64,000 nucleotides of DNA from Apostichopus japonicus (lineage: Eukaryota > Echinodermata > Holothuroidea > Aspidochirotida > Stichopodidae), in NCBI RefSeq assembly GCF_037975245.1, contig NC_092568.1, positions 9,945,501-10,009,500 of the forward strand, read 5' to 3'. Position 1 is the stretch's first letter. Every line of letters starts with the position of its first letter. Of this stretch, positions 125 to 64,000 are shown in pieces. Made by a program: the position numbers and the translations under genes. A model generated the notes under the pieces. That model was not told where the DNA came from. It made no database searches and saw only the letters and a list, made by a program, of their open reading frames with translations.

Positions 125-366
125 ATTACAACCGGTTACAACTTTCAGAATTCCACTAGTGAGTCAGTGTCCGAAAGAGACTTTGCGAATGGCGAGCAGC
201 TCTATATATTCTACGGTGCTAGACCCAACGCTCACTTTCTACTCTACAGCGGGTTTGTGTATCCAGAGAACGAACACGACACGATAGCTATCCAACTAGG
301 AGTCAGCAAGAACGACAGACTCTACGCAATGAAATCACAGATACTAGCCATGTTACGGATGTCAGA
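125..366 (+). CDS. SETD3: SETD3-like exon a (end of SET domain)
   Basis: The acceptor is TTCCAG at 119-124 and the donor is GA|GTAAGTC at 367. The exon starts in phase 0 and ends after two bases of a Glu codon completed by the A at 1946. It encodes ITTGYN through ILAMLRMSE. Reading past the donor meets TAA at 368-370, so the exon cannot extend in frame. Confidence 0.92.
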
Positions 367-3300
367 GTAAGTCATAGCGACGGCTGTAGACTCTATGCAA
401 TGAAATCACAAATACTAGCCATGTTAAGGATGTCAGAGTAAGTCAAAGCCAGGGATGTAGACTATGGAATGAAATCACAAATACTAGCCATGTTACGGAT
501 GTCAGAGTAAGTCAAAGCCAGGGCTGTAGACTCTATGCAATGAAATCACAAATACTAGCCATGTTACGGATGTCAGAGTAAGTCAGAGCCAGGGATGTAG
601 ACTCTATGCAATGAAATCACAAATACTAGCCATGTTATGGATGTCAGAGTAAGTCAGAGCCAGGGATGTAGACTCTATGCAATGAAATCACAAATACTAG
701 CCATGTTACGGATGTCAGAGTAAGTCAGAGCCAGGGATGTAGACTCTATTCAATGAAATCACAAATACTAGCCATGTTATGGATGTCAGAGTAAGTCAAA
801 GCCAGGGCTGTAGACTCTATTCAATGAAATCACAAATACTAGCCATGTTACGGATGCCAGAGTAAGTCAAAGCCAGGGATGTAGACTTTATGAAATCACA
901 AATACTAGCCATGTTACGGATGTCAGAGTAAGTCAGAGCCAGGGATGTAGACTCTATGCAATGAAATCACAAATACTAGCCATGTTATGGATGTCAGAGT
1001 AAGTCAGAGCCAGGGATGTAGACTCTATGCAATGAAATCACAAATACTAGCCATGTTACGGATGTCAGAGTAAGTCAAAGCCAGGGATGTAGACTCCATG
1101 CAATGAATTAAAAAATACTAGCCATGTTACGGATGTCAGAGTAAGTCAAAGCCAGGGATGTAGACTCTATGCGATGAATTAAAAATACTAGCCATGTTAC
1201 GGATGTCAGAGTAAGTCAAAGCCAGGGATGTAGACTCCATGCAATGAATTAAAAAATACTAGCCATGTTACGGATGTCAGAGTAAGTCAAAGCCAGGGAT
1301 GTAGACTCTATGCAATGAAGTCACAAATACTAGGCATGTTACGGATGTCAGAGTAAGTCAAAGCTACTGCTGTAGACTCTATGCAATGAAATTATTCCAG
1401 CAAAGTTGCTCACACTTGTCCTGATGCAGTAGCACTAATACTGATATGCCAGGCATTGTGGGAATCTGCTGTGGATACTAGTTCAAGATTATGTACTTGT
1501 AGCCCTGCATAGAACCTTATACTCATTACAAAAGGGATTTATACTTTTTACTCATCATAATACCAATGCTGCCGTACTCATACTGCAAGTCTGTAAAGTA
1601 CTGTATAACCTGAGCAATGAATCCACGCAGTCAGTTTAGTCAAGAACATTTTTGTGAGATATCATTTCTACAAAGTCAAGAAGTTTTACCTGGATATTGA
1701 TATCCAGATAAGGTGTTTACATTTAAAATGTGCAATTTTTATTTAATTGGAGATTACCATCCCGATGAGTATGCTACCCTTCTTCCATACACTTTTTCCT
1801 AATCAAGTACTGTACCTGTTCTGCAACTTTTAGACTTACTCCACTGTTGATCCACTCTGTAGAAATATGAATTATTCCTTACACATTCAGGACCATGTCT
1901 ATGTAGTTTCATGTTTCTATTTTCTTTTGGTGTTTGCTTTCTCAGACCCTCGCACACGTTTTATATCCAGAAGAGCATCGAACCGATATCAGTCGAGCTG
2001 TGGGCTTTCCTTCGAGTTTTCTCCATGGACGAAGGTTTGCCGGAGATTCCGTTAAGATGTTAAAAGTTTCACCGTAAATCATTTCAATGGATAAGCATCA
2101 GGCATCAGACTTTTCCCTTTGACATAAAAGTGACCATGCTCAAAGTGAAATCATGTGTGACATTATCAAACAAAAACATGTGGCCTGTATGTTCAGCAAG
2201 GAGGGATAATGACATTTAGGAGTAAATCAATCGAAAGTCACATTTAATCTCCACAATAAATGATTTGGATAAAAAAGTTTAGTGAGTTCGGTGAGAGGAA
2301 GCGAGTAACTAAAAAGCAGATCGTCCTTGCCTGCTGTTGTATACCATTACAGATGCGATGCATGCCTGCGTCCTTGTCACGTCATTAAAATTGGAAACAG
2401 TCCAAACTTGTCGTACCTTTAACAGTTGGTTACTTCGCAATGGTCGTTGCAGCAGAACTTAGCCAGTGCAACAGCACAGTTGTTTGAACCAGAATCTAGT
2501 TCTGAATCAAGAGTATGGCTCTTCATTATGGTTCTTGAAAGATTATCTTTCATTTTAGCTAAAGTCCTTTAAAATTGGAACAAACCAAATCCAGTGTCCA
2601 CCCCGCCCCCCCCCCCCTCCTCTCCCACTACATTATCCTTCTACCACAGTCCTAAATCCCTTTCCTACTGAATAAGACTCTAAAGTGATGTAACATCTCC
2701 TAGTTTAAATGTTCATTCCATCAAAGCTCCACGTTTTGGTTACAGCTTTTATTTCTCTCCTTGCTCAGAGCAACTCAAGGCACTATTGTTAGGACCCAGA
2801 TCGCAAGAACTGATGGCGAACCTGATAAGACCGAACCGTCTGGTCAGCAAGGAGAACGAGAGGAAGGTCTGGTCTTTCCTCGATGTACGTCTCAGGCTTC
2901 TCCATCAGCAGTACCAATCGACAGAAGAGGTAGGCCATGGAACTACTCTAAGAATAACCTTCTTGCCAGAAATTTGATCAGACCTGCCAAGTATCATCAG
3001 TCAAAAGGAAGATTGCAAATTGGTTGAAATGAGACAAATCTGCTAGATTTCTTAAACTTAAATGAATATTCAGTAGTGAATAATTCATTATGCTGTTTGA
3101 TAATAAACATTATTGTTGCCTGGACACTTTCCATAGTAGATTAATTACATTCAAAAAATTCAAATCCAGTTTTCTCCTCAAGCTGTATTGTTTATTGTAA
3201 TTTGTGGAGGTCAAATGTCATTTTGAGTTCATCAGAGGTGAAAGTCTGGAGACCATTTAAATAGGATAACTCAAGAAGGAACTTCTCACTTACAGTCAAC

Positions 3301-20700: not shown

Positions 20701-23700
20701 TTGATCAAAAAACCATTGAGAAACCAAACATTTCACCAAACATTTCACTTCAATCAAATGAATTATATAGCAATGGGAAGCAGACGTTACCTGAACATAA
20801 TCAGCCATCCCGTTGCCCCCAGAAGGATTGGTCTCTGGTTTAGGCTCACTGGACGGATCCACGTCTCCCTCCCCCACACCTGGTTCCCCCTCCATACCTG
20901 GTTCCCCCTCCATTCCTGGTTCCATTGTCGTCGTCATATCTGTTAGCATAGTTGTAACATCAGTAACTACTTGCTTTAAACACAAATGGAAAATAATATG
21001 TTGAGTCACTATACCAATGTTAACATGGCAGGCCAAGACTGTTAGCATAGTTGTAACATCAGTAACTACTTGCTTTAAACACAAATGGAAAATAATATGT
21101 TGAGTCACTATACCAATGTTAACATGGCAGGCCAAGACTGTACTGTACTCTACCCTGTTCCACCAAACAGCAGTATTTTGAAAATGAAAACAGGTGACGT
21201 CTCTTTTCATGGATGTTCTCAGTGTAAAGGAAGGCGTTCACATGTTTTGCACTTGTCGAAGGAAGTACATATTCTGTCTACTGATAAGAAACAAAATCTT
21301 TCCACCGTCTTTTAACTTTCTATGTTTATCTGAATCTGCAATTACTAAAACTTTGCTTCTGAAAAGGCAGACTTACAAGTTTTCAATTGATTCAACTGAC
21401 TTTTTCCCCCCTTGTCAATTGAAACGACAACAATATAGAACCAATACTATGCTATAACCATTCTCAGCTTATAGCAGACACAACCATTTCTCAAATTTGT
21501 TGCTTTTAAGTATTTCCACCATTCTTTGCATTTTCTTTTTATTTTGGGTACTCTCTCACCAGAGTCTGCCATCCTAGTGATGTCAGAAAATCATCAGTAG
21601 TGGCTGCTCCATATCTCTACCCTTGTCAACAATGGAATGATCCAACAAGATTCTATTACTACCCTCCCTTAATATAAATCCCTTAACAATCATGCTACAA
21701 ACCCAAACCACAGCAATTATAGCGCCATTCCATCCCAACCCATTGTGCTAGCCCTTTTGACCCCTTTGGTCTACACTCCCCCTAACAATCCACCCACGAC
21801 CTATTGTTCTCCACCTTTGTGACCGCAACCCATTGGGAGGTTATTTTATGGCATTCCATTACTGTGGGGATCCAAGCAAAGATTACCAGATGTTGATATA
21901 AAATTGCTTCCCTCAATCACATGGGATTGGGACAGCTGCAGAGCATACATAGGGTAAAATAACAGCTTTTTTCAGCCTGAAATATCACAACCATAGAGTA
22001 TAATCTTTTCAGATTTAGTTTCCCAGAAATATATATTTATGCTGGTCATGCTTTCAATCACTAAATGATTATTTGGACAACGCTCCCAAGAAAGCAACAT
22101 GAAACACCCCTCAAATGTGTACAATTTGAAAGATCACTGTGTAAACTTACCCTACGTTTTCGGCCCAATGATGTTGTGATGGGTCCTTCCAACAGTCGGT
22201 CAGCATCAACAATAACAAATCCATCAACTTTGTAGGTTGACAGCCAAAAGTTCATAGCTTCCTGTAAATTTGTACAAGAAATCAGAGAGGAAACATCAAA
22301 AACTTTGCATACAAATCACAGCACCAGTAACAAAGAGCAGCACTACCAGTCAAGGTTCTCACCATCCACCCCTTCCCCACCCCGCACTTTCTCCTCTACG
22401 GAAAAACAAAGGTTAACACCAAAAAAATACCATATTACTGTACCACAATATGCGTTGCTCCTCAGATTCTCCGGGTAGTAATTTTGGTATTTATTTTGCA
22501 GTGGTCTGTGGCCAAGACACATTCAAGTTTGCAAAGATACAAAACTTTTTTGTCTTATATCACAGTTCTGTAAGACATGAATCACGCAACACTAAAGTAC
22601 AGTTAGTATATTCACTGCAGAATGAGTACAACAGTATGAGTACAAATCAAATAGTGAGTAGCAGTTCGAGGCTCTCTATAAGCGTTAGTACCAATACTTC
22701 ATATTTATAATTCCTAAAGGTGGGTGCTCTTAGTAGGACTACAAATCCATGAGGGCGGAGTAAACTGAAGCTAGTACCGGCCATGTACGTGAGTTACCAT
22801 AGTTACCAGCCAGGCATCACACACACACTTAACATGTCGTCACCACCACCGCATAGACTCCTCTTGTTGCCTTTGGCTAGGAACCAGAATTTACCATGGT
22901 AAGTATCATACATGGTCACCATTTATCAGAAGCGCTGTTGTAGTTCACTCTGATGCACAGCACCGTTTTCAACCAATACCTCTCTGCCCTTGGACTGAGC
23001 CACTGCTACTACTGTATTTAATGTGGTATAGATGGATTAGAAAGAAGCAAGCATACCTTAATCTTGGCTGTAACATTTGCATTTCTAAAGTTGAGGTCAG
23101 GTTGAGTAGATTCGTAAAAGTGATAGTAATATTGCTCGCCAAGTTGAGTCCAGGCAGATTCACCCTTGTAGTTTTTCTGTGGGCAAAGCATTTAATGAGA
23201 TGAGACATTTCAACTCACAGATTTGTGGTGAGGAAATGACGATGCATATGTGTCCCCCCGCCCCCCCCACCTATTCCCCTCTCTCCTGCTGCCATACACA
23301 TCAATGGTACACAAAAGAGCTACAAGTTTCAAGGATTAACCAAGATGAAAATACCTGCCAACAGTATGTTAGTTTCTTTCATGACCAAAGTGTTAAGCTT
23401 CTGCAATGTGCACAACACATTCAATCCTCCTACCACCATCACTGTGAAAAGGCAATAGATTTGCTCCAAGGAATGTAGTCAAGACTAGCAGACAAGAATC
23501 TGTACACTGGCAGTTTCCTTAATTTTCTAAAATATTACATGAACTGTGCACAACAGCTTCATTAAGCCACTCCTCCTCTCCCCCCCCCCCCCCAAAAAAA
23601 AGAAAGAAACCCAGTGTTTTGGGTACTTTCATAAACAACTCTTACCCAATCATTTGGTGGTCCACTACCAGAACCTGGTGCCCATGTGTAGAAATCTCTG

Positions 23701-63472: not shown

Positions 63473-64000
63473 ATGAGACTTATATAGCGCCAAATCAGTA
63501 GACAAAAGCCACCGCGCAAGGCGCTTTACAAAGAAAACAGATTAATTTACAAAAGAACAAGTGAAAAGATGGGTCTTAAGTAGACTTTTGAATGTAGAAA
63601 GTTTAGAGCATGTTCGAATGTGATCTGGTAAATTGTTCCAGAGATAAGAGCCAGAGTATTCGAAGCTTCTGTAACCATATGTCTTCAAACGTGGTTTAGG
63701 AACAGTTAAATACAATTTGTTGGACGAACAAAGTGTGCGGGTTGGAATATATGGCAAGAGAAGTTGCGACAGGTATACAGGCTGTTCCAGATGATGAGCA
63801 CAAAACGTGAGAAGTAGTTTATACTGAAGAAGTAGTTTATACTGAATTCTATAGCTGATAGGGAGCCAGTGAAGTTCCTTTAGAAGTGGAGTGGTTCGGC
63901 ATTTTCTTCCCTTCCTTTTCACAATATGGGCAGCGGTGTTTTGGATCTTTTGAAGTTTCTGGATGGTTGAATCAGGGAGGCCGAATAAAAGAGAATTTAA
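63472..64000 (-). mobile_element. LINE (CR1/L2-like) 3' end with open reverse-transcriptase C-terminus
   Basis: The minus-strand frame is open from the window edge (64000) to a stop at 63542-63544. It reads LNSLLFGLPDSTIQKLQKIQ, LLKELHWLPISYRIQYKLLL, RLKTYGYRSF, LWNNLPDHIR and FKSLLKTHLF, a textbook non-LTR C-terminus. A 3' UTR follows with GGCGCTATATAAGTCTCATT and an ATT tail. An 18-bp tandem duplication gives QYKLLL twice. It looks younger than the other LINE remnants here. Confidence 0.9.

Follow-up and report, generated by a model that had tools for sequence, protein, structure and literature searches.

Why should an intron open with a field of identical splice donors, and does their presence alter the output of the gene that carries them? 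In the window analysed here (a stretch of 64,000 nucleotides of the Apostichopus japonicus genome), the 3' edge of a coding exon of SETD3 and the 5' splice site behind it are repeated in tandem. The sequence-only reading of this DNA had offered two interpretations side by side, a neutral array or one that competes for U1 and tunes SETD3 output through nonproductive splicing. Two reports on amphioxus describe tandem repeats of exon-intron boundaries, termed mirages, in the genes for Adh3, troponin C, globins, and PGBD5 (PMC3087553, PMC3902484). A mirage minisatellite can be understood as the tandem expansion of a stretch that crosses such a boundary, and the SETD3 array is of this kind; we consider it to be probably tolerated and neutral, with the first donor in use.

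The SETD3 locus and its array

The gene product matches SETD3 (actin-histidine N-methyltransferase) in PDB with an E value of 1.2e-46 and Pfam Rubis-subs-bind at 3.5e-18, which upholds the gene name first proposed. The exon with the amplified edge codes for ITTGYN...ILAMLRMS and the first two bases of an E codon, and its frame is open (Table 1). When 20 kb of upstream sequence were added, 13 exon matches spanned residues 1–630 of the SETD3 protein P0241, and a whole-genome search for SETD3 gave 14 matches, 13 at this locus and one weak match (29% identity) on contig C10; SETD3 therefore seems to be a complete, single-copy gene. Its neighbor is an arylsulfatase A gene (three open frames joined), whose product is 99% identical to a protein of A. 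japonicus and 73% to one of Holothuria leucospilota. At window positions 63542–63922, on the minus strand, an open frame appears to resemble a reverse transcriptase of non-LTR retrotransposons in its C-terminal part.

Table 1. Positions of features at the SETD3 locus (window coordinates) and of arrays with homology-backed or putative exon edges elsewhere in the assembly
Feature	Position	Strand	Evidence or remark
SETD3 exon with amplified 3' edge	125..366	+	tblastn P0241, 90% identity, residues 281-361; acceptor tract ...TTGCCTTCCAG
71-bp tandem array	317..1392	+	TRF, unit list, alignment; 15 full units and a partial unit of ~19 nt
Intron, 1,579 nt, starting inside the array	367..1945	+	
First donor AGA|GTAAGTC	367..373	+	Frame-keeping; junction ...SE or TE|PSHTFYIQ conserved in P0241 and P0242
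In-frame TAA, read with any later donor	368..370	+	
GTAAGTC copies 2-15	438, 507, 578, 649, 720, 791, 862, 928, 999, 1070, 1141, 1211, 1282, 1353	+	
Next SETD3 exon	1946..2034	+	tblastn P0241, residues 362-390, 93%; acceptor ...TTTGCTTTCTCAG
SETD3 exon	2769..2929	+	Homology to P0241
Last SETD3 coding exon, including stop codon	3575..4129	+	tblastn P0241, residues 445-630
L037, YJU2	G000:C1:1922101-1923300		Pfam Saf4_Yju2 2.8e-12; PDB YJU2 2e-12; exon end ...NPMK|
L038, L039, Aa_trans-like exons	G000:C1:2432801-2433700, G000:C1:2474301-2475200		Pfam 1.1e-8 (L038 sequence tested)
L042, SPTLC1-like	G000:C2:10268301-10269300		PDB 1.1e-5
L036, putative exon edge	G000:C2:13554701-13555900	-	

TRF places the array at 317–1392 with a period of 71, 15.3 copies, a 93% match, and a score of 1830, in agreement with the earlier description of a 15-donor minisatellite drawn from the exon edge, whose 71-bp unit spans exon and donor. 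Each unit consists of 50 nt of exon edge, rather than the roughly 49 first estimated, and 21 nt of intron; in unit 1, the coding part occupies 317–366 and the intron part 367–387, while the terminal partial unit (1374–1392) holds no donor. The intron does open with a field of donors, as had been claimed, and these are not merely near-identical, since AGA|GTAAGTC is the same in all 15 full units. Spacing between successive donors is 71 in 11 of 14 cases and 69, 66, and 70 in the other three. On the plus strand of the window, the word GTAAGT occurs 36 times, 15 of them within the array. A chance origin of the array was ruled out by the TRF score together with the homology of the first unit.

Donor choice and its predicted consequences

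Across the first donor, the frame runs ...ATG TCA GA|G TAA, which puts the TAA directly behind the exon in frame, and the initial claim that this stop is read by all donors but the first is confirmed by the frame analysis. With any of donors 2–15, the new junction would lie 67–982 nt downstream of this stop. By the usual 50–55 nt rule, a stop that far upstream of a junction marks an mRNA as a target of nonsense-mediated decay, and mRNAs spliced at the later donors are therefore predicted to be such targets.

Evidence on which donor is used comes from two SETD3 proteins, P0241 (630 aa) and P0242 (655 aa), whose contigs (2,385 and 2,426 bases, respectively) include the whole frame and are most likely cDNAs. 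They are 71% and 66% identical to the SETD3 of the window, compared with 40% for a starfish sequence, and this closeness suggests other sea cucumbers as their source. P0241 reads ...MSE|PSHTFYIQ and P0242 reads ...MTE|PSHTFYIQ at a junction that corresponds exactly to 366|1946 in the window. From these relatives, we infer that SETD3 of A. japonicus also uses its first donor. Annotation lends this no support, since no row named as A. japonicus SETD3 appeared among the best 120 of 273 listed protein matches (lengths 191–609; some rows nameless) or among the 24 rows of a second protein search (lengths 348–1106). In the mechanism that we favor, the outermost donor, adjoining the complete exon, would be used and the other 14 would leave with the intron; transcripts spliced at a later donor would stop at the TAA and then be destroyed by nonsense-mediated decay, so that the array would cost little and drift, presumably as a neutral element.

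The same geometry could also serve as a copy-number-dependent brake, in which U1 binding at the 14 additional donors sends a share of the transcripts into RNA that contains the stop or retains the intron; the level of SETD3 would be set in this way, with array length as the tuning knob. Every later donor would lead to an in-frame stop at the distances given above, and the products would be good substrates for decay. The 15 donors are, moreover, fairly strong as well as identical: 355 of the 7577 GT sites in the window, array copies included, pair with the 5' end of U1 as stably as the array donor or better. About 95% of these sites thus pair no better than the array donor, which makes competition for U1 physically plausible. 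In human genes, intron retention can be favored by additional splice sites close to an authentic one, as a study on VWF reports (PMC8706089). Against such a brake, the amphioxus authors concluded that mirages leave regular splicing undisturbed, on the basis of Adh3 data and of RT-PCR for globins (PMC3087553, PMC3902484), and similar arrays on unrelated genes (see below) point to a general by-product of minisatellite formation. The neutral half of the original pair of interpretations is favored by these two lines and by the weakness of the donor-core evidence presented below, whereas what speaks for tuning is geometry. A brake on SETD3 is possible on that geometry, although we regard it as unlikely.

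Origin and turnover of the repeat units

The tandem units include an exon edge, backed by homology, together with the adjoining intron, and the repeats sit in the intron next to an intact authentic exon. Under the mirage explanation, a first duplication would have placed the exon edge and the start of the intron, donor included, into the intron, and slippage or unequal exchange would then have expanded the duplicate to 15 units. Mean identity among units is 92.1%, rising to 93.3% among inner units and falling, in comparisons with the rest, to 88.9% for unit 1 and 88.5% for the last unit; inner units are therefore homogenised and edge units diverged, and identical units occur at a distance from each other (u5 and u10, u4 and u6, u12 and u14). 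This pattern is that expected of slippage or unequal exchange sparing the edges, and it has also been reported for amphioxus BflGb6 (PMC3087553).

Two sites in the exon part distinguish the first unit from nearly all others, TAC/TAT in 13 of 14 units (with one gap) and CAG/CAA in 14 of 14, and both differences are synonymous. Some variants in the intron copies would change or disrupt the protein, namely CGG to TGG in u5, u7, and u10 and an in-frame TAA in u12–u14. No unit of the 15 departs from the others at positions −3 to +6 of the donor (column shuffle, P = 0.028, uncorrected); the longest stretch without variation is of ordinary length (P = 0.16). The constancy of this core is at best suggestive, a weak hint of constraint or selection.

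The units hold a complete donor and, directly before the exon part, a TGTAG, and this raises another interpretation, that one of the later units has been, or is going to be, recruited to form a new exon, the array being an intermediate in intron or exon gain as modelled for amphioxus globins (PMC3087553). However, the TGTAG sites at 388 and 459 are preceded by 20 nt with 45% and 35% pyrimidine, compared with 75–90% at three SETD3 acceptors, in a test of composition on two sites with the acceptor of the last exon left out. Recruitment of this kind is very unlikely in our judgement.

A shorter true repeat might instead have been falsely expanded in assembly. The precedent is an amphioxus mirage that was apparently misassembled in a draft genome, as stated in a supplement legend (PMC3087553). 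The assembly used here (671,581,487 bases in 35 contigs) nevertheless agrees in size with the chromosome-level A. japonicus assembly published from PacBio and Hi-C data, which has 671.6 Mb, 34 scaffolds, and 38.56% GC (PMC10344927); GC content of the window is 38.2%. Private unit variants and differing edges are not expected from the false stacking of one unit, and similar arrays occur at other genes. An artefact is thus highly improbable, while the exact copy number of 15 is an unverified figure from one assembly.

Insertion of a dispersed satellite or transposon fragment at the exon edge was rejected, and we give it next to no credence. Nothing was found in its favor, and when two units were searched against the 671.6 Mb assembly with a tool that skips very common words, all seven matches fell inside the SETD3 array, so that no dispersed satellite or transposon is evident. 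The unit furthermore carries the coding sequence of the exon itself, with its two near-fixed differences synonymous.

Exon-edge arrays beyond SETD3 and in other animals

Within 284 contiguous kb around the window, 14 distinct arrays were detected (period of at least 25, at least 2.5 copies), and that of SETD3 was the only one with a donor motif in every unit. Genome-wide, we searched for three AGGTRAGT words at 53–83 bp spacing, with the backward pattern as control, and obtained 891 raw triple matches (441 + 450) for the donor pattern and 710 (403 + 307) for the control. Among the matches listed, which span C1 (21.65 Mb) and C2 to 13.56 Mb, or about 35 Mb, nine donor clusters compare with six control clusters, four of the latter being simple sequence by eye. 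Neither raw counts nor cluster counts among the matches listed demonstrate genome-wide enrichment of donor arrays over the control, and the argument therefore rests on exon homology at the arrays.

Flanks were fetched for all nine donor clusters, four chosen by eye first and the other five afterwards. An exon 3' edge backed by homology was found at four of the nine, on YJU2, an SPTLC1-like gene, and two near-identical copies of an amino-acid-transporter gene. In YJU2, at least nine AG|GTGAGT donors follow from the ...NPMK exon edge on, mostly in units of 39 bp, each of which includes about 18 nt of exon. The transporter copies (L038 and L039) lie about 42 kb apart and share a unit of about 76 bp, of which about 21 nt are exon, with apparently different array lengths; they may be a tandem gene pair, which would date the array, or two unmerged haplotypes, which would show length variation. 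The SPTLC1-like exon had no match in a Pfam search, and the 38-bp unit of its array is nearly all intron besides the donor. Two more arrays, L034 and L036, probably also sit on exon edges, as open frames end at their first donor, and no relative of either was found in Pfam or PDB. In L036, with 33-bp donor-bearing units, one frame stays open through the array, and later donors would add in-frame peptides if the putative exon is real. No clear exon edge was found in the fetched flanks of L035, L040, and L041. The nine donor-bearing arrays are new here, and that of SETD3 is one of several mirages in the A. japonicus genome.

A separate repeat in the window is an exact 99-bp duplication (20940–21141, minus strand) at what is probably the 5' boundary of an exon belonging to an SLC3A1-like gene, an assignment that comes from other exons, with the repeated piece outside the matched stretches. 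The acceptor TTTAAAG|CAAGTAG is repeated there, and its phase fits the preceding exon, provided that the two are direct neighbors. Splicing to the upstream copy would lengthen the protein by 33 in-frame residues. This may be a two-copy mirage of the acceptor type.

Mirages on SETD3, YJU2, SPTLC1-like, and amino-acid-transporter genes suggest that such arrays originate at any place where a minisatellite is seeded across an exon edge. They amount to natural experiments on how donors are chosen, offering up to 15 equal donors with the full protein obtained from the outermost only, and existing RNA-seq could measure both the preference of the spliceosome for the donor adjoining the real exon and the effect of array length. 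A bolder proposal is that exon-edge minisatellites form a class in sea cucumbers, on tens to hundreds of genes including YJU2, whose fields of copied donors make some of the transcripts unproductive, the share depending on copy number. We regard this as a long shot; if true, gene output could be dialled up or down by array length, a setting that mutates fast, is inherited, and perhaps also shifts somatically, and YJU2 is itself a splicing factor.

According to the amphioxus reports, mirages differ in length between haplotypes and are somatically unstable at Adh3; found in a handful of amphioxus genes, they are suggested to be perhaps general in cephalochordates (PMC3087553, PMC3902484). Like those described there for Adh3, troponin C, BflGb6, BflGb9, and PGBD5, the SETD3 units span an exon-intron boundary and carry a splice site, and their diverged edges and homogenised interior resemble BflGb6. 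The 71-bp unit lies within the amphioxus range (10–72 bp in Adh3, 150–160 bp in BflGb6), whereas its 15 donor copies compare with six and three units in two BflGb6 haplotypes, and the host is an echinoderm rather than a cephalochordate. Among the open-licence papers listed in full-text searches, none reports by its title a mirage-type array in an echinoderm, which is no proof of absence. Human introns are also said to have arisen from tandem arrays, as Zhuo et al. reportedly described in 2007, with repeats that contain splice sites giving rise to spliced introns. The SETD3 array shares with these the tandem duplication of splice-site-containing sequence inside a gene; its repeats, however, lie within a single intron, with no sign of a new one. 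The decoy exons that drive intron retention in SF3B1 and OGT likewise present close-set splice sites that could compete with an authentic one; they are, however, noncoding exons with splice sites in retained introns, whereas the donors of the SETD3 array are not accompanied by good acceptors at the sites that were scored.
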